From NCBI GenBank assembly GCA_012517775.1, contig JAAYUJ010000512.1, forward strand, positions 1-42,713: a stretch of 42,713 nucleotides of DNA, given 5' to 3'. This document shows, in pieces, positions 4,548-42,713 of the stretch. Position 1 is the stretch's first letter. Each line of letters opens with the position of its first letter. The notes below the pieces were generated by a model that worked only from the letters and a program-made list of their open reading frames with translations, made no database searches and was not told the DNA's origin. A program made the position numbers and the translations under genes. Origin of the DNA: Deltaproteobacteria bacterium. Its GTDB lineage: Bacteria > Desulfobacterota > Syntrophobacteria > Syntrophobacterales > Syntrophobacteraceae.

Positions 4548-5282
4548 CTACTCTTTCGCCCTGTTCACAGACAGAAAAGCCAGCACGAACAGGATGAATC
4601 CCAGCAGACCCAGGAGAAGACAGGAAAAGGACTCGAATCGGAGACCGAAAGCGGAGCTTCTAATAGCCTTCGCTGCATGGGTGAGAGGGAGAAGGTTCAG
4701 TATGCTCTGAACCCATGAAGGCATACGTTCCACTGGAAAGAATGTTCCCCCCAGAAAGGCCATGGGGGTGATGAAGAAGTTCGTGAGGAGTGCCTGGTCC
4801 GCGTGGGACTTCACGAGCATGGCAAGGCAGACGGCGAGGGAGGCAAACACGAAGCTGTTGAGAATCACAATGAGCCAAAAACCAGGTGAGTAGCAAAGGG
4901 AGATTCCGGAAAGGAGTCCGATGACAAGAATGATCAACACCGAGAGAAGGGCTCTCGTTACACCCGCCAGGACTTCTCCTGTGACGTAGGCGATGTTTCG
5001 AATGGGAGCCGCCTGGAATTCCTCAAAAATGCGCCAGTAGAATCGGGCGATGTTGATCTCACTGGCAATTGCAAAAGACTGGGTCATACTGCTCATGGCA
5101 ACCAATCCGGGAATGAGAAACTCCAGATAGGACCGGTCGCCGACGTGGACACCTTCGCCCATCCCCAACCCGAAAGCAACGAGATAGAGGAGAGGTCCGA
5201 CGGCCATGGAAGCCATCTGACGGAATATCTTCTTCCTCAGGATGAGAAGCTCCCTGAGATAGACGGCAAACCAGCCTCTCAT
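4548..5282 (-). CDS. ABC-2 type transporter permease
   Basis: Six-TM-like hydrophobic profile; MRGWFAVYLRELLILRKKIFRQMASMAVGPLLYLVAFGLGMG; ...TPMAFLGGTFFPVERMPSWVQ... typical of ABC-2 permeases. Coupled to the upstream ATPase. Confidence 0.93.
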   Translation of the reverse strand: MRGWFAVYLRELLILRKKIFRQMASMAVGPLLYLVAFGLGMGEGVHVGDRSYLEFLIPGLVAMSSMTQSFAIASEINIARFYWRIFEEFQAAPIRNIAYVTGEVLAGVTRALLSVLIILVIGLLSGISLCYSPGFWLIVILNSFVFASLAVCLAMLVKSHADQALLTNFFITPMAFLGGTFFPVERMPSWVQSILNLLPLTHAAKAIRSSAFGLRFESFSCLLLGLLGFILFVLAFLSVNRAKE

Positions 5283-6121
5283 GTCGGCTGGACCCTCTTT
5301 CCAGTGAGCGAGAGGAAAACATCTTCAAGGTTGACCCTCCTCAGGGCGAAGCCCCCCTCCTGTGCTTGGATGTAACGGTTGGCTTCTTCTCGACTCTTGA
5401 AATAGGTTGTCTCCATTTCCCCATTGGCAATTTCATCCAATGCCCATGCACCAAATTGAGACATGAGATGCTGTGGTTGGTCGACAGCAACAACCTGACC
5501 TTCGTCCAGGAAGGCGACCCGTTGGGCGAGAAATTCAGCTTCTTCGATGTAATGGGTTGTCAGAAAGATAGTTGAGCCGTTCTGTTGGATCTTCTTGATG
5601 AGGGACCAGATGCGGCGCCTGATGGTCGGATCGAGGCCGACAGTGGGTTCATCGAGGAAGAGGATTCTGGGCATATGCATCAGGGCGCGGGCAACCATAA
5701 CCCTTCGTTTCATACCCCCTGAGAGTTGCTTGACGGGGCTGTCCCTCCGGTCGTGGATCTCCACGTATTCAAGGAGTTCCCCGATTCTCGCCTTCCTTTC
5801 CCTTGAAGGCATGTGAAAAAGTCTGCCGTGAATATCCAGGTTTTCATAGACAGTGAGTTCGTGATCCAGGTTGATGGTCTGGGATACCAGTCCGCATTGC
5901 CTTTTTGCCTTGAGGGTTTCCTTTTCTATGTGGAAGCCATGGAGATAGGCGTCTCCCGATGTGGATCTTGCTAGTCCGGTCAGGATCTTGATGGTGGTCG
6001 TCTTCCCTGAACCGTTTGGACCCAGATAGGCAAAAAGCTCCCCTTCCCGGACATGGAGGTTGATGCCTCGCAACGCCTGTAGTTTCTTGTAATGTTTGGT
6101 CAGGTTTTCAATCCTGATCAT
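5279..6121 (-). CDS. ABC transporter ATP-binding protein
   Basis: Walker A GPNGSGKTT, signature LSGGMKRR, Walker B RILFLDEP. Likely start MIRIENLTKHY at 6121; stop overlaps the permease start (ATGA). Confidence 0.95.
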   Translation of the reverse strand: MIRIENLTKHYKKLQALRGINLHVREGELFAYLGPNGSGKTTTIKILTGLARSTSGDAYLHGFHIEKETLKAKRQCGLVSQTINLDHELTVYENLDIHGRLFHMPSRERKARIGELLEYVEIHDRRDSPVKQLSGGMKRRVMVARALMHMPRILFLDEPTVGLDPTIRRRIWSLIKKIQQNGSTIFLTTHYIEEAEFLAQRVAFLDEGQVVAVDQPQHLMSQFGAWALDEIANGEMETTYFKSREEANRYIQAQEGGFALRRVNLEDVFLSLTGKRVQPT

Positions 6122-6641
6122 TCCGGCCTCGATAGGAATGTGCATCCCACCGGAAGGAAACAATTCTCGACCGGGCGAACAACCCGTGTCTAAGGTTTGC
6201 ACAGGCTAACCGGCAAGCATGAGTGATTTCAAAAACGATGCACTTTGGCGTGAAGCAGGCTTGTCTGTCAAGGGGCTTTTATCCGGCCCCTCCTTTCAGG
6301 AGAATCATCCTCGTGGAAGACGATGGGACGATTGGCCACGGCAATCAACGATTGAATAATCAGAGCAGAAAATTTATATTAGGCACATTCTGAAAGGCCG
6401 GTGAACTGCATGTTGCTATGGGTTAAGGCTGGAGCCACGAAAATGCACGAAATGCCTCTCTTGTCTACCGCATGTGCGGATGAGGAGGGAAAGTGCTCGC
6501 GTTTCGGCTTCTTCGCCTCAATCTTTAGCCGCCGCGATGTCGTTTTGACCGCCCCCTTCTCCCCTAGTGGGAAAAACAAGTCTTCCCGAGAAGTGATGTC
6601 TGAGTATTTGTATTGGGTCACAGAATTGGGGTATACGAAAT

Positions 6642-6715
6642 CGGCGGTGGGTTCTGCTGCAACCACTTGACATGACCAAGGCATCGAATCCATGTCTGGT
6701 TGCCATCCACCGCCG
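6642..6715 (+). other. Three-tier inverted repeat / candidate structured leader upstream of the CoA-activase gene
   Basis: CGGCGGTGG(6642-6650)/CCACCGCCG(6707-6715), GCAACCA(6659-6665)/TGGTTGC(6697-6703), GACATG(6669-6674)/CATGTC(6691-6696): 22 nested Watson-Crick pairs ending 30 nt before the ATG at 6746. Confidence 0.65.
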
Positions 6716-6745
6716 AGGTGTGTGCGGATATAAAGGAAGAGAAAT

Positions 6746-9700
6746 ATGGAAACAGAATATGATGTGGGCATCGACATAGGTTCGGTGAGCATCAACTGTG
6801 TGATTTTGAATCGCAGTGGACAGGTCGTCTTCGAAACACCATACATCCGGCACTTCGGACTCGTCTACGAAGAGACACACAGACTGCTCAAAGAAATACT
6901 ACAACCAAACACTGCTGTTTCCCGGCCGGAGTGGGACCCCATCGCTATTCGTTCCTTTTCATTTACAGGCGTCCATGGGCAGCTTGTCTCCCAGATACTC
7001 TCCGCTCCTTTCGAGGTGGAAACCATCGCCCAGGTGACGGGAGTGACCCATGTACTCCCAGGCGTGCGTACCATTATCAGCATCGGCGGTCAGGATGCCT
7101 CTCTCTTTCAACTGGGTTACAAGGAAGAACAGTGGCACCTGGAATCGTTCAATATGAACGGACCCTGTGCTTCCGGAACGGGGTCATTCATTGATCAGCA
7201 GGCGGAGCGTCTGGCCCTTTCCATGTACGGTTCGGAATTCCACATGAACCAGGAAAAGCTTCAGGAGGTCCTTGAAGACTTCATCGCACTGGGATTGAAG
7301 AGCACCTATCCCGCCCCGGTCGCCTGCAGGTGCACCGTTTTTACCAAGTCCGACATGATTCACCTCCAGAACAAAGGAGAACCGCTTCCCAATATCATTG
7401 CGGGACTCCATTATGGAAATGCTGCAAACTACCTGAGCACCATCGTTGGAAATCGGAAGCTTTTCGAGCCCATCGTTTTCATCGGCGGCATGGCCTCCAA
7501 CCCCATGCAGGTGCAGGCCTTCCAGAGTTATTTCCCGGCACTGCAAGTGCCTCCTTACCACACTTCCCTCGGCGCACTCGGTGCAGCCCTCCAGGCACAA
7601 AGGCAGGGATTGCGCAACCAACTAGACCTTAAGCGTCTCGCTCAGAGCGGCACGCGAACCGCATACGATTTCCCCAAGGCCGAATGCCTTGAACTGAGGC
7701 TTACCCGCTTCGACCCCGACAATTCGCTTTCACCCTGGGGCAAACGCAGAAAACAGCCCGCTCAGGCATACCTGGGGGTGGACATCGGTTCAACGACCAC
7801 CAAGTATGCACTCATCGACGACAGTGGGCAGATCCTTCACAAATCCTATGTGCCAACCCGAGGGAAGCCCATCGAGGTCACTCAGAAGCTTCTGCAGCAC
7901 CTCAACCAGGATGTGGGAAAACGCGTTCGCCTGTTGGCCGTCGCAACAACAGGATCCGGGCGTAATGTGGTGGGGGATTTCCTGAGCGCCGATCTGATTA
8001 TCGACGAGATCACGGCCCACGCCAGGGGAGCCGTGGCGGTCGACCCTGAGATCGATACTGTCTTTGAAATAGGAGGACAGGATTCCAAATACATTCACAT
8101 CGAGAACACCCATCCCCTCGACTTTGACATGAACAAGGTCTGTGCTGCGGGCACGGGCAGTTTCCTCCACGAACTGGCAAACAAAATGAAGATCAACATC
8201 GTGGACGAATTCCAGGAGATTGCTCTGTCATCCCGGTCTCCCATCCATCTTGCCGAACGCTGTACGGTTTTCATGGAATCGGACCTGGTGAGCTATGCAC
8301 AAAAGGGAGCCTGCCGAGAGGATCTCATTGCAGGACTCTGTTACGCCATTGTCTATAATTACCTGAATCGAGTCGTGGAAAAGCGGTTTGTAGGACAAAG
8401 GATCATGTTTCTCGGTGGACCATCCCTCAACCGGGGTATCGTCGCCGCCTTTGAAAAGGTGCTGAGGCGGCCCATCCTGGTTCCAAGACACCGGGAGGTG
8501 CTGGGGGCCTATGGAGCTGCCCTCGCCGTGAAGGAACTGTACCGTAAGGGACAGATACCGCAGCAGTCCAGGGACCTGGAAGGCCTGGCCCACATGACCG
8601 TGACGTACACTGAGAGTGTGTGCCGGGCAGACAAAAAATGCCACAACGAGTGCAAGCTGAAGATCTACCAGTTTGGGGAGAAGAAGAGCATCTGGGGAGG
8701 AGACTGCGGCCGCTACGAAGTGGGACGCTACGATGGGACCCATGAAACAAACTTCTTCCTGGAGCAGCAGCATTTTTTCCAGGAAGCGCTGGAGGAAAAG
8801 GGCATTTCAACCCTGGAACTCATCCGCAAGGACGATCCTTCCAGACCAACTGTGGGGATTCCTCTTGCCTTGCACACGATGGGACTCGGGGTCTTCTGGA
8901 CTCATCTCTTCTCTGAATTGGGTTTCACTGTTCTATTGAGCCCGAGGACGAACAACAAACTGGCCTTGAGCGGCGTCGAGAGCATGACGGCGGAAACGTG
9001 CTTCCCGGTGAAGGTTTTCCACGGACATGTGCGCTACCTGATGGACCGGGTGGAATTTCTGTTTTTGCCGAATGTCATCAACATGCCTACTCCTGTAGAG
9101 CATGAAACCGGCTTTTTCTGCCCGCTGGTGGAAAGCTCTCAGTATATGGTGAGAGCGGCCTTGAACATCCCGACCCACAGGATGATCCGACCCACCCTCC
9201 ATCTAAAAGACGGTCCGGAGCATCTTGCGGAGCCCCTCTATGACAGTATCCCGAAAAAGCTGAGGCCGGGCCGGCTGGCTCTTGAGAGGGCAATTGAGAG
9301 AGCGTGGGCGAGACAGGAAGCGTACAGCGAAACGTTACTCCGACGAGGAAGGGAAGTCCTCAATGGCACTTCTCTCGCTCAACCCCTTTGGGTTGTGACG
9401 GGAAGGCCTTACAACCTCTATGATGAACGCCTCAATCTTCAACTGGGAAGGCAGTTTGCAAAGCTTGGAATCAAGGCTCTCCCGATGGATTTCCTCGACG
9501 TCGACAGTGAGGATCTGAGCGACTTTCCCGGAATGTATTGGGGCCTGGGGGCCAAGATTCTGAGGACCGCCAAGCGGATAGCGGCGACTCCCAACTGGTA
9601 CGGAGTCCACCTCACCAACTTCAGCTGTGGTGCGGACTCTTTTATTGAGCACTTCTACCGGCATATCCTCAAGGACAAGCCCTCACTCATTCTGGAGCTC

Positions 9701-9817
9701 GACGAGCACAGCGCTGTCGCGGGTGTCCTCACCCGAATCGAAGCTTACAGGAATGTGGTCAACAACCTCCAGGAAAGGCTGTGGTCCAGGGGCGACAGTC
9801 TTGAAGCCATTGGTTAG
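6746..9817 (+). CDS. Tandem BadF/BadG/BcrA/BcrD-type ATPase (2-hydroxyacyl-CoA dehydratase activase-like) with DUF2229-like C-terminal part
   Basis: Two ASKHA ATPase modules (DVGIDIGSVSINCVILN / SIGGQDAS / NGPCASGTGSF and LGVDIGSTTTKYALID / EIGGQDSKY / KVCAAGTGSF), a Cys-rich segment CRADKKCHNECKLKIYQFGEKKSIWGGDC, then a CoA-dehydratase-activase C-terminal type region. Confidence 0.9.
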   Translation: METEYDVGIDIGSVSINCVILNRSGQVVFETPYIRHFGLVYEETHRLLKEILQPNTAVSRPEWDPIAIRSFSFTGVHGQLVSQILSAPFEVETIAQVTGVTHVLPGVRTIISIGGQDASLFQLGYKEEQWHLESFNMNGPCASGTGSFIDQQAERLALSMYGSEFHMNQEKLQEVLEDFIALGLKSTYPAPVACRCTVFTKSDMIHLQNKGEPLPNIIAGLHYGNAANYLSTIVGNRKLFEPIVFIGGMASNPMQVQAFQSYFPALQVPPYHTSLGALGAALQAQRQGLRNQLDLKRLAQSGTRTAYDFPKAECLELRLTRFDPDNSLSPWGKRRKQPAQAYLGVDIGSTTTKYALIDDSGQILHKSYVPTRGKPIEVTQKLLQHLNQDVGKRVRLLAVATTGSGRNVVGDFLSADLIIDEITAHARGAVAVDPEIDTVFEIGGQDSKYIHIENTHPLDFDMNKVCAAGTGSFLHELANKMKINIVDEFQEIALSSRSPIHLAERCTVFMESDLVSYAQKGACREDLIAGLCYAIVYNYLNRVVEKRFVGQRIMFLGGPSLNRGIVAAFEKVLRRPILVPRHREVLGAYGAALAVKELYRKGQIPQQSRDLEGLAHMTVTYTESVCRADKKCHNECKLKIYQFGEKKSIWGGDCGRYEVGRYDGTHETNFFLEQQHFFQEALEEKGISTLELIRKDDPSRPTVGIPLALHTMGLGVFWTHLFSELGFTVLLSPRTNNKLALSGVESMTAETCFPVKVFHGHVRYLMDRVEFLFLPNVINMPTPVEHETGFFCPLVESSQYMVRAALNIPTHRMIRPTLHLKDGPEHLAEPLYDSIPKKLRPGRLALERAIERAWARQEAYSETLLRRGREVLNGTSLAQPLWVVTGRPYNLYDERLNLQLGRQFAKLGIKALPMDFLDVDSEDLSDFPGMYWGLGAKILRTAKRIAATPNWYGVHLTNFSCGADSFIEHFYRHILKDKPSLILELDEHSAVAGVLTRIEAYRNVVNNLQERLWSRGDSLEAIG

Positions 9818-9838: not shown

Positions 9839-11227
9839 ATGTCAACACCAAAGGACGAATATAGCTTTGAACGCTTCCATACGAGTGTCGGCCGGTTCGA
9901 TGTCTCAGGCAAGACGCTTCTGATACCCGACATGGCTCCTTTCGGAGCAAGGCTTCTTGCCGCCTGCTTTCGTGCCTTCGGGGTGGGTGCTGTTGTCATG
10001 GAGACATACAAGGGACTTGTCCTGGGAAAGGAGTATACTTCCGGGAAGGAATGCTTCCCCTGTCAGGTGACCCTGGGAGACATTCTCTATCACCTTCGAA
10101 AAGAGGAAGAACGACTCGGGCCGGCTTTTTCTCCGGAGAATTATGCTTATTTCCTGCCTGAAGCGGATGGTCCATGCCGATTTGGGATGTACAACAAGAT
10201 GCAGAGACTGATCCTTGACCGGTTTCCTGAATTCCGGGATGTTCCTATCGTCTTTCTCTCAACAGGAGACGCTTACGGAGCCGGGGGGCTGCTGCCTCCC
10301 GAACAGGCATCGATTTTCAGGAAGTTGAGTTATGTAGCAGTGATCATTGCGGACGTACTGGATCGCATCGTCTGGAGAGTGCGTCCCTATGAACGGCAAC
10401 CGGGGATGACCGATGCGTACATGGAGGATGCGCTCCGTTCGGTTTGTTCCGTTATCGAATCCTCCGGAGCGAGTCTCGATTTCAACCGGCTGCACCGGAT
10501 GGTGGAAGAGATAACCATTGAAACGTGCGCCTTCCTCGACTCTGGGAAACCTCGCCGTCCCCGTATCGGTATCGTTGGAGAGATTTATCTGCGCAGTCAT
10601 CCGGATTCGAACCAGAATATCATCCGTTATCTGGAGGATTTCGGGGGAGAAGTAGTGGATGCGTCCCTCGGAGAGTGGGTGAATTTCGTCACCTATGAGC
10701 GTGCCATGAAGACGAGGCGCCGCTTCAAAATTGCCTGGAGAGAAGGTGATCATACGCAACTGAGGCAGGCGGTGCGCCAACTGCTGGATCTGGAAATCGA
10801 ACGGTGCTACCAATACTGGAGACAGAGCCAGGTATATCGACGCACTCTTAAACACCTGGATATTCAACCCGACCACTCCATCCGCACCATCGAAAAGCGT
10901 CTCGAGGGAGATCATCTCTTCAGCTTTGATATTGGAACCGAAGCGGCTTTGAGTATCGGGGGGGCACTGGAATACGTCCATGACGGCTTTGACGGGATTG
11001 TCAACGTTTTTCCATTTACATGCATGCCGAGCACCATCTGTACGGCAGTATTGAAGCCTTTGCTTCACAAGAAGGGTATTCCTTACCTGGACGCGCCATG
11101 CGACGGAACCACTCAGCCGAACAGGGAAGTGGCTTTGCGCACATTCATGTATCAAGCGAAACAGCATCTGGAGTCTCGCACTGCGGGAGAGAATGGTAAG
11201 GCAACGAAATGGCAAGCCAGACACTGA
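9839..11227 (+). CDS. 2-hydroxyacyl-CoA dehydratase/activase-associated protein (partner of the preceding activase)
   Basis: 21-bp gap after the activase; MAPFGARLLAACFRAFGVGAVVM... YTSGKECFPCQVTLGDILYHL..., ...PRRPRIGIVGEIYLRSHPDSNQNIIRYLEDFGGEVVDA... resembles the C-terminal part of fused large activases. Confidence 0.8.
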   Translation: MSTPKDEYSFERFHTSVGRFDVSGKTLLIPDMAPFGARLLAACFRAFGVGAVVMETYKGLVLGKEYTSGKECFPCQVTLGDILYHLRKEEERLGPAFSPENYAYFLPEADGPCRFGMYNKMQRLILDRFPEFRDVPIVFLSTGDAYGAGGLLPPEQASIFRKLSYVAVIIADVLDRIVWRVRPYERQPGMTDAYMEDALRSVCSVIESSGASLDFNRLHRMVEEITIETCAFLDSGKPRRPRIGIVGEIYLRSHPDSNQNIIRYLEDFGGEVVDASLGEWVNFVTYERAMKTRRRFKIAWREGDHTQLRQAVRQLLDLEIERCYQYWRQSQVYRRTLKHLDIQPDHSIRTIEKRLEGDHLFSFDIGTEAALSIGGALEYVHDGFDGIVNVFPFTCMPSTICTAVLKPLLHKKGIPYLDAPCDGTTQPNREVALRTFMYQAKQHLESRTAGENGKATKWQARH

Positions 11228-12693
11228 TCATCAATGCCGCCCACCCGGAGGAATTCCGTGTAGCCATGGTGGAGGGGCAAACACTTGAAGGCTTCTTCAT
11301 TGAGACGGCTACACGGGGCAAGGTTGTGGGCAATCTTTACAAAGGCATCATCACACACGTGCAGACCAGCCTTCAGGCTGCATTCGTGAACTATGGAACG
11401 GAGCGCAACGGCTTCCTCCCGTTTCATGAAATCCATCCGGAATACTATCGCAAGGAGGCCCGCGAGCAAGTAAGAATCCAGGATGTCATTGAAGTGGGGC
11501 AGGAAGTCCTGGTCCAGGTGGAAAAGGAAGAGGTCGGCAACAAGGGGGCTCTTCTCACAACATACATTTCCCTTGCGGGCCGTGACCTCGTTCTGATGCC
11601 CGGCCAATCTCAAAGGGGGGTCTCCCGCAAAATCGAAGACGAAGAACAGCGGGGACGGCTGAAGGACTTGGCAAACAGCCTCAAGATTCCCGAGGACTTC
11701 GGCATCATCATACGCACGGCCGCTGAGAACTGCAGCAAGCGGGAAGTGGCCAAGGACCTGAATCACCTGGTGATGATCTGGGAGGACATCAAGAAACAGG
11801 TTCAGGAAACGCCGGCTCCCGCCCTTATCTACAAGGAACAGGATCTGGCCATCCGGGTGATTCGGGACTATTTCAACCCGAACATCAAGACGATTCTGGT
11901 GGATGACAAGGAAGTACACCGGCGGGTCAAGGATTTCATGGGGATCATCAGCCCCGCGCACCAGCGCAATGTCAAGCTTTACAAAGAGGACGGTCCCATC
12001 TATCACAAGTATCACCTGGAGGATCAGATCGAGCAGATCTTTCGAAACAAGGTTCCTCTGAAATCGGGAGGATACCTCCTCATCGACCAGACGGAAGCCC
12101 TTGTGGCCATTGATGTGAACTCCGGCCGGACCAATGGGGATTCCGCTCTTGAGGAGATGGTCTACAAAGTCAACCTGGAAGCCGCCGCCGAAATCCCGCG
12201 TCAACTGAGATTGCGAGACCTGGGAGGTCTGATTGTCATTGATTTCATAGACATGCGCGACAACCGCCACACAAGAGATGTGGAGCGTCGTTTGAAGGAA
12301 GAAATGAAGAAAGACAAGGCAAAAATCACGGTGGGACGGATCTCGCGGTTCGGCCTCATGGAGCTCTCACGCCAGCATCTCGGACTCAACATCATGCGGG
12401 GCTCTTTCCGTGAATGCCCTGTCTGCAAGGGGGTCGGCGTGACACGTTCACCAGAGGCAACCGCCGTGTGTTTCTTTAGAAAGATTTGGCTCATGCTGGC
12501 TCAGAAGAAACCGGCGACTATCCGGGGCACTTTTTCGGTCCCCGTAGCGAACTATCTCCTCAACAGAAAGCGCGGCGACCTCACGAAGCTCGAGGCGCAA
12601 TATGATGCCAGGATCATCATTGAAGCATCTACAAACCTTTATCCCCACGAAGGACACCTGGAATTTACACCTCGGGAAGTTCAAAACCAGTAA
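11209..12693 (+). CDS. rng: Ribonuclease G/E family
   Basis: S1-like N-terminus (GNLYKGIITHVQTSLQAAFVNYGTERNGFLPFHEI), ALVAIDVNSGR, GLIVIDFIDM, REGMELSRQ-like (RFGLMELSRQ), Zn-link CPVCKG. Start overlaps the upstream CDS end. Confidence 0.95.
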   Translation: MASQTLIINAAHPEEFRVAMVEGQTLEGFFIETATRGKVVGNLYKGIITHVQTSLQAAFVNYGTERNGFLPFHEIHPEYYRKEAREQVRIQDVIEVGQEVLVQVEKEEVGNKGALLTTYISLAGRDLVLMPGQSQRGVSRKIEDEEQRGRLKDLANSLKIPEDFGIIIRTAAENCSKREVAKDLNHLVMIWEDIKKQVQETPAPALIYKEQDLAIRVIRDYFNPNIKTILVDDKEVHRRVKDFMGIISPAHQRNVKLYKEDGPIYHKYHLEDQIEQIFRNKVPLKSGGYLLIDQTEALVAIDVNSGRTNGDSALEEMVYKVNLEAAAEIPRQLRLRDLGGLIVIDFIDMRDNRHTRDVERRLKEEMKKDKAKITVGRISRFGLMELSRQHLGLNIMRGSFRECPVCKGVGVTRSPEATAVCFFRKIWLMLAQKKPATIRGTFSVPVANYLLNRKRGDLTKLEAQYDARIIIEASTNLYPHEGHLEFTPREVQNQ

Positions 12694-12948: not shown

Positions 12949-14700
12949 ATGAAAAGGTTTCTCTTGCTGTGTATGGTTCTTTCAGTGGGCTTTGCCTGTT
13001 TCGGCACCAATGCCTTTGCATGGCAGGGCAGAATGGCCGGTATGGCCGATCCGTATGGACTCCTGGAAGATGAATCCGATTTCCTCGTCCATCCCGCCAT
13101 GATCGCCGACGGCGAGGGAGTGGACTTCTACGGACATTTCAAATATCTCTACAAGGATGTCTCTGACTGGAACTATGATTTCTCTCTCAATCCAAACAGT
13201 ATCAGAGTCCTCGGAAATCAGCTGAACATACCCGGCCTGTCCGCCCTGTCGCTCGGAGGAGGCTACAAAGGCTCGGGGGATGAAAACCACTACGACGCCT
13301 CAGCCGGAGCCGCTTTTCCCCTGGGATGCGGCAGGATGGGGGTCTTCTTCAACTACAAAGGGAAAAACGGCGACTACAACGGCACCGGGCTTTTTGCGGG
13401 CTCTGCCACTCTTGCCAACAATCCTTATGGTGCCGGTCTTGTGACCGGCTACAACATGGACAGCTCCATCGACAGCTTCATCGGCAGGATCATCTACGGC
13501 TTGCCTCTTGGAGCAAGTCTCAAGCTGGGCGCAGAGCTCGAAGTCGCATACAACAAGGACAAGAACAGCACCAAGGAAAGAATCACCGACCTTGTCTTCA
13601 ACGGAAATTCATACAAAGACTATTTCGACCTGACCAGTAAGAACAGCTTTGTTGGGACCCTCTTTCCCTTCATGTATCCCGTAGACTCAGAGTATTGGGA
13701 AATCACCCCCAAGGTCGGCCTCACCGGAGTGTCCGGACCCGTCAAATGGGGTCTCACCGTTCGCGGCGGCGCTGTGTTTTCAGGAGACAATTCATGGAGC
13801 TCCAGTCAATTCCTCGACTTGTACGGCATCCCTCTTGGGGTGGGGAATCTGACACCTCCCTGGGATCTGGCGGCAGATCACGGCTTTCGCATGGACGGTG
13901 ACGTGGACGGATGGAAAGTGGGGGGAGATTTTTGGCTCCGTTATGCTCTCTCTCCATGCATGAATCTCCCATTCCTCCTGAGAGTCGATCACAGGGAGAT
14001 CAACAGAAACGGCCGCGGTGCAGGACTCGTTTCCTGGGATCTCTGGGACAGCGCCGCGCCTCAGAACACGTATACCGGCAGTTATCCTTTAGGCTGGGAT
14101 TATGAGCATAAGGAAAGCGTCTTTGAAGTGGAGACCGGCGCAGGTCTGGAATACGTCCCCAGTAAGACGACACGCATCGCCGGAGGGCTCTATTACAAAT
14201 ACATGGATGCCAAGCAATCCCTGGGAATGACTCCCACTGCAACCTTTGCCCTCGGCCCCCCCATCAACACCCTGGCAGTCTCTCTCCCCACAGCCTACGA
14301 TCCCGCTCCGGATAACACCGAGCACCAGATCATTCTCAGGATGGCGGCAGAAAGGGAAATCAACCCCTGTTTCGTCCTTCGTGGAGGTCTCAAGACTTTC
14401 ATCGGCTGGGTGAACGAGGACTTCGCCCTGGGCACGAACCTGTCCCCGACCGGTCTCAACCTCGTTACGTCCCGCTATTCTCTCAGTGGAACTCATTGGG
14501 GGATCATGGGAGCCATCGGCGCCACGGCAAAGTTCACGACTTTCGAAATTGAACCTTTCATCCAGGCGGGCTATGAAGAGTACGATCCCGATGGAGACGG
14601 CTATCTCAGTCTCGTCGGAGGCGTTGCCGACGCGGCCTTCGATGTGACCAAGGAACGCAGTGAAGCCCTGATCGGAGCGGGTATTTCCGTCCGATTCTAA
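12949..14700 (+). CDS. Secreted outer-membrane beta-barrel (porin-like) protein
   Basis: Signal peptide MKRFLLLCMVLSVGFACFGTNAFA; aromatic/Gly-rich amphipathic strands; terminal ...GISVRF with C-terminal Phe; strong SD AAGGAGGAGAGTT. Confidence 0.8.
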   Translation: MKRFLLLCMVLSVGFACFGTNAFAWQGRMAGMADPYGLLEDESDFLVHPAMIADGEGVDFYGHFKYLYKDVSDWNYDFSLNPNSIRVLGNQLNIPGLSALSLGGGYKGSGDENHYDASAGAAFPLGCGRMGVFFNYKGKNGDYNGTGLFAGSATLANNPYGAGLVTGYNMDSSIDSFIGRIIYGLPLGASLKLGAELEVAYNKDKNSTKERITDLVFNGNSYKDYFDLTSKNSFVGTLFPFMYPVDSEYWEITPKVGLTGVSGPVKWGLTVRGGAVFSGDNSWSSSQFLDLYGIPLGVGNLTPPWDLAADHGFRMDGDVDGWKVGGDFWLRYALSPCMNLPFLLRVDHREINRNGRGAGLVSWDLWDSAAPQNTYTGSYPLGWDYEHKESVFEVETGAGLEYVPSKTTRIAGGLYYKYMDAKQSLGMTPTATFALGPPINTLAVSLPTAYDPAPDNTEHQIILRMAAEREINPCFVLRGGLKTFIGWVNEDFALGTNLSPTGLNLVTSRYSLSGTHWGIMGAIGATAKFTTFEIEPFIQAGYEEYDPDGDGYLSLVGGVADAAFDVTKERSEALIGAGISVRF

Positions 14701-24867: not shown

Positions 24868-24979
24868 CTTCTCAATAAGTCCGGGTTAAGGCTCCTTCGT
24901 AGGTCGGGTTTCCATACCCCGCATATGGGTGCAAACGCCGTCGGGATTGGTATCCCGACCAACTCGTTGAGAAGGTACG
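24868..24979 (+). repeat. Copy 2 of the ~112-bp dispersed double-hairpin element
   Basis: cttctcaataagtccgggttaaggctccttcgtaggtcgggtttccataccccgcatatgggtgcaaacgccgtcgggattggtatcccgaccaactcgttgagaaggtacg. Confidence 0.92.
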
Positions 24980-42478: not shown

Positions 42479-42529
42479 GGCAGGTCCGGCATTCTCTCAT
42501 CCTCTGCGCAACATTTGCCATGTTCGCGA

Positions 42530-42641
42530 CTTCTCAATAAGCCCAGGCAACGATACCTTTGCAGGTCGGGTTTCCACACCCGACACCCCGGTGCAAAGGC
42601 TGTCGGGATTGGAATCCCGATCTACTTATTGAGAAGGTACG
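42530..42641 (+). repeat. Copy 7 of the ~112-bp dispersed element (best-preserved outer inverted repeats)
   Basis: cttctcaataagcccaggcaacgatacctttgcaggtcgggtttccacacccgacaccccggtgcaaaggctgtcgggattggaatcccgatctacttattgagaaggtacg; perfect CTTCTCAATAAG/CTTATTGAGAAG. Confidence 0.95.
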
Positions 42642-42713
42642 GGCATTCCACACAATTCCTTGACATTCTATCATTTCCTCGGGCTCTCCGTGCCGTTCAC
42701 AGTACGAAAGTAC

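Follow-up and report, generated by a model that had tools for sequence, protein, structure and literature searches.

The three-tier stem-loop upstream of the acyl-CoA dehydratase activase gene of a Syntrophobacteraceae MAG is best read as a lineage-specific leader stem-loop, either neutral or acting as a generic mRNA-stability element, and we place the probability of this reading at about two in three (0.68). We call "the window" the whole stretch of 42,713 nucleotides that was analysed. The MAG was the only genome of its species in the comparison, which included a single congener, whose activase is 83% identical. Three observations carry the reading: the computed structure of the hairpin, a conserved promoter upstream of it, and its absence from relatives. 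An earlier sequence-only reading had described the structure accurately; the regulatory roles that it proposed fail the conservation test, which drew on a single genome from this species. The features of the locus are collected in Table 1.

Table 1. Positions of the hairpin, the leader and the neighbouring genes in the window
Feature	Position	Strand	Evidence and details
Divergent ABC transporter ATPase	5279-6202	-	PF00005; family-conserved neighbour
Conserved sigma-70-type operon promoter	6351-6380	+	TTGAAT - 17 nt - TATATT; -35 at 6352-6357, -10 at 6375-6380
Predicted 5' leader, ~359 nt	6387-6745	+	Start (TSS ~6387) inferred from promoter
Three-tier stem-loop	6642-6715	+	Direct reading; MFE and centroid concordant
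Stem pairs and loop of the stem-loop	6642-6650/6707-6715, 6659-6665/6697-6703, 6669-6674/6691-6696; loop 6675-6690		
Outer G-U-rich stem, 7 bp	6631-6637/6719-6725 (extended hairpin 6631-6725)	+	MFE of 6630-6745
Shine-Dalgarno (AGGAAGAG)	6734-6741	+	Direct reading; outside hairpin stem
Two-domain acyl-CoA dehydratase activase, operon gene 1	6746-9817	+	BcrAD_BadFG x2 + DUF2229; PF01869, PF09989, TIGR00241
462-aa conserved protein, gene 2	9839-11227	+	tblastn to relatives' loci directly behind activase
RNase E/G, gene 3	11209-12693	+	PF10150, TIGR00757; 19-nt overlap with gene 2

Structure and folding strength of the hairpin

Direct reading of the sequence confirmed the three exact stems of 9, 7 and 6 bp (22 bp in all), the apical loop of 16 nt and the 30 nt that separate position 6715 from the activase start codon, ATG at 6746. 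In the MFE structure, the basal stem gains three pairs (6641-6652/6705-6716), and this 25-bp form has an MFE of -36.9 kcal/mol over 86 nt. When the outer stem is included, the MFE is -44.8 kcal/mol over 116 nt (6630-6745). The pair probabilities of the hairpin stems, computed in the whole leader, are ~0.995 or higher. The structure is a single stem without a junction; it has two asymmetric internal loops, one with 6 nt facing 1 nt and the other with 3 nt facing none.

The fold has a z-score of -3.36, which none of 200 dinucleotide shuffles equalled. Among 1,704 116-nt windows taken from both strands of the 42.7-kb window, ~1.2% reached a z below -3.36, and stronger folds are present at several other sites. 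The hairpin is real, strong locally and above local chance, yet it is not outstanding in the context of the window.

A conserved promoter and a variable leader

The promoter form ATTGAAYAA-N-TTATATTA was found upstream of the activase orthologs at 22 of 32 distinct loci, compared with 0.22 expected from shuffled upstream sequence. The count refers to distinct activase loci with an amino acid identity above 60%, whose upstream regions were strand-oriented. A promoter scan also recovered the site in the window. Two blocks of the intergenic region could be aligned with the congener. One is the promoter block (79.6% over 49 nt). The other, at 6232-6273 (81% over 42 nt), lies in the stretch that separates the operon promoter from the divergent ABC transporter; it carries TTGACA on its reverse strand and could be the transporter promoter.

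Given the conserved promoter, the hairpin probably lies inside a transcribed leader of ~359 nt, and a transcription start downstream of 6715 is unlikely. For the proposal of a cis-regulatory RNA, the support extends to the location alone, in a probable leader with a family-conserved promoter upstream; the stems themselves are unconserved.

Between genera, the leaders range from 51 to 383 nt. Most are 50-75 nt long, which is too short for the hairpin, and a few are 196-383 nt long; in both genomes of the genus, the leader is ~355 nt. The congener leader is similar in length to that of the window and unalignable with it beyond the promoter (best local alignment score 17, under the shuffle mean of 18.7). 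Leaders that vary in length between genera and cannot be aligned within the genus point to weak constraint. Six long leaders were compared for a common structure: three have a best-window z of -3.3, -3.6 and -3.2, the remaining three do not reach -2, and no sequence is shared among them.

Short ORFs exist in the leader, such as that starting with GTG at 6401-6670 (89 aa; no Pfam match). Leader peptides were considered and found unsupported, because the leader does not align to that of the congener. At the congener locus (L003), the leader contains the perfect palindrome ACTGCTCCCCAAGGGGAGCAGT at ~1310-1335, with TTCTGTT immediately after it; this structure is terminator- or attenuator-like and has no counterpart in the window.

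The operon and its neighbours

The order of activase, 462-aa protein and RNase E/G, together with the divergent ABC transporter, is common to the relatives. The 462-aa protein has no Pfam or NCBIfam match. It is ~47-80% identical in relatives and, in nearly all of them, immediately follows the activase; judged by position and inference only, it is possibly dehydratase-component-like. Going by gene spacing, the RNase E/G gene may belong to the same transcript. The true start of the transporter ATPase is probably at ~6121, as most ortholog alignments begin only at residues 18-28 of the ORF as called. Downstream of the operon, a 583-aa ORF (12949-14700) has a signal-peptide-like start (MKRFLLLCMVLSVGFACFGTNAFA) and no Pfam or NCBIfam match; by eye, it looks like an outer-membrane beta-barrel protein.

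Absence of the hairpin from relatives

Neither a DNA search nor a covariance model found the hairpin in any of the other family genomes (25/25, congener included), and blastn and the covariance model likewise failed to find it in the fetched upstream loci of the orthologs. The comparison of upstream regions that the sequence-only reading had called for therefore went against it: the stems are lacking in the congener and in all other family genomes. The covariance model was built from one sequence and detects near relatives only. Applied to 395 genomes across the phylum, it returned, beyond the own genome, a single weak match in genome G233 (E 0.044, 22.6 bits), which we attributed to chance; by eye, the matched stretch resembles coding sequence. 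The congener may conceivably have a homologous structure that has diverged strongly, though nothing in its leader resembles the hairpin. With no homologue in the family, an unalignable congener leader and short leaders in most relatives, there was no alignment from which covariation could be computed.

Rfam 15 at the gathering threshold gave no match in the whole window. A permissive scan gave nothing at the hairpin and only a sub-threshold match to Ysr201 outside it, so the Rfam search did not connect the hairpin with a known family.

Possible action of the hairpin

The predicted accessibility of the Shine-Dalgarno sequence in the full leader was 0.50 with the hairpin and 0.49 without it, and this unchanged value rules out Shine-Dalgarno sequestration. 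No intrinsic-terminator-like site was found on either strand between 6100 and 6800. The sequence 3' of the stem, AGGTGTGTGCGG, lacks a U-run, and the hairpin is therefore no intrinsic terminator. Since the accessibility is unchanged and a terminator is absent, the hairpin would act on mRNA decay or have no effect at all.

In the reading that we favour, the conserved promoter ~260 nt upstream of the hairpin would transcribe a long, fast-evolving leader of the activase operon, within which the hairpin would fold independently. As the Shine-Dalgarno sequence is left free, the hairpin would not switch translation by masking the ribosome site; lacking a U-run, it would not terminate transcription either. 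Any action would likely be generic, in that a stable duplex in front of the ribosome site may alter the access of ribonucleases to the message, either by 5' stabilisation or as an RNase III-type entry site. The hairpin may equally be neutral. We infer its transcription as well as a stability effect or neutrality.

Stem-loops in leaders are known to prolong mRNA half-life, and the 5' UTR of vacA offers a comparison. Its stem-loop is reported to be highly conserved in clinical isolates, and its disruption reduces mRNA half-life and steady-state level (PMC4843948). The likeness is a stable hairpin in a transcribed leader, predicted in our case, upstream of the start codon; the vacA stem-loop is reportedly conserved and was experimentally tested (PMC4843948), whereas the window hairpin is computed only and unconserved. 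A further difference is the large distance between the window hairpin and the predicted 5' end.

A dispersed repeat in the window

A 115-nt element at 42525-42645 is bounded by terminal inverted repeats (CTTCTCAATAAG/CTTATTGAGAAG) and contains several palindromes, GTCGGGATTGGAATCCCGAT among them; no other site in the window folds as strongly (z -6.8). A second terminus-like match is present at 24868-24880. We obtained 518 first-look candidates for this element in the own genome, and the 40 that were scored match at 85-100%. Its 13-mer terminus occurs 106 times in the own genome vs 0 for the control. The element was not found in the congener or in four other family genomes; it resembles a MITE- or REP-like family that has spread recently.

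Alternative explanations

The sequence-only reading had also suggested a decayed inverted-repeat element. The hairpin might be the remnant or copy of a dispersed inverted repeat (MITE, REP or IS end), as its imperfect inverted-repeat shape and the presence of a high-copy palindromic repeat in the genome would allow, or it might have been copied from part of another gene. We consider such an origin unlikely. Unlike REP and MITE dispersed palindromic repeats, the hairpin is single-copy: apart from chance-level matches of 18-24 nt, its own genome holds no second copy at E <= 10. It has no similarity to the high-copy palindromic repeat, and it has no match in phage and plasmid records, while viral contigs were negative by exact 23-mer. 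One arm does show a 24-nt match to a trpB-like gene of another family (E 5e-4; 1 of 98 genomes), which could speak for a copied piece. However, the own trpB-like gene differs at the matched stretch and ~0.05 such matches are expected over 98 genomes; we therefore regard this match as chance.

In E. coli, RNase E reportedly binds a stem-loop of the rne leader directly. The rne 5' UTR is 361 nt long and exerts feedback control of RNase E in cis (PMC10989929). By analogy, the leader might be a sensor of RNase E/G, which would bind or cut the stem-loop and thereby adjust its own polycistronic mRNA. The two systems share a leader of ~360 nt (~359 nt here), a stem-loop, strong in our case, and a transcript, presumed in the window, that encodes RNase E/G. 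Such a sensor is nevertheless quite unlikely, because the family-wide conservation of the operon extends neither to the hairpin nor, for the most part, to the long leader. In addition, unlike in rne, the RNase gene stands third in its operon; the leader lies in front of the activase, and the hairpin ~4.5 kb upstream of the RNase gene. The similarity in leader length is probably a coincidence, and the rne element was compared through Rfam only.

Very unlikely, in our estimation, is a genus- or species-specific leader RNA through whose stem-loop RNase E/G or another regulator sets the level of an operon joining an acyl-CoA dehydratase activase to an RNase E/G gene. Two points weigh against the reading that we favour. 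Leaders of ~355 nt in both genus members, compared with 50-75 nt in most relatives, could reflect a genus-specific leader function. Moreover, a neutral 25-bp stem should decay fast, and the intact stem hints at a recent origin or at selection within the species.

A ligand-sensing riboswitch or another specific cis-regulatory RNA of the activase operon, responding to CoA thioesters or a redox cofactor, is highly improbable. The hairpin resembles riboswitches and Rfam cis-regulatory leaders in its position, within the predicted leader that precedes a metabolic operon, and its three-tier stem is stable. It differs from them in having no Rfam match, no phylogenetic conservation and no visible expression platform, as it provides neither a terminator nor Shine-Dalgarno sequestration; it also consists of one stem only. 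All relatives with the same operon lack the hairpin, the 83%-identical congener among them, and this non-conservation already brings the riboswitch close to refutation.

We give hardly any credence to a separate small RNA, which the sequence-only reading had listed, or to a minus-strand feature in place of a part of the mRNA leader: the reverse complement folds nearly as well (-37.1 kcal/mol) and a 155-aa minus-strand ORF spans the hairpin site, but that ORF has no Pfam match, the leader region is unalignable to the congener, neither strand carries a terminator-like site between 6100 and 6800, and we found no own promoter close to the hairpin and no homologue.

Implications for the family

With these reasons, the hairpin is removed as a riboswitch candidate. 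The useful remainder is a promoter, conserved throughout Syntrophobacteraceae, for an equally conserved operon of activase, dehydratase-like protein and RNase E/G. Should the long leaders prove functional, they would link RNA decay with the acyl-CoA metabolism of syntrophs and of sulfate reducers.
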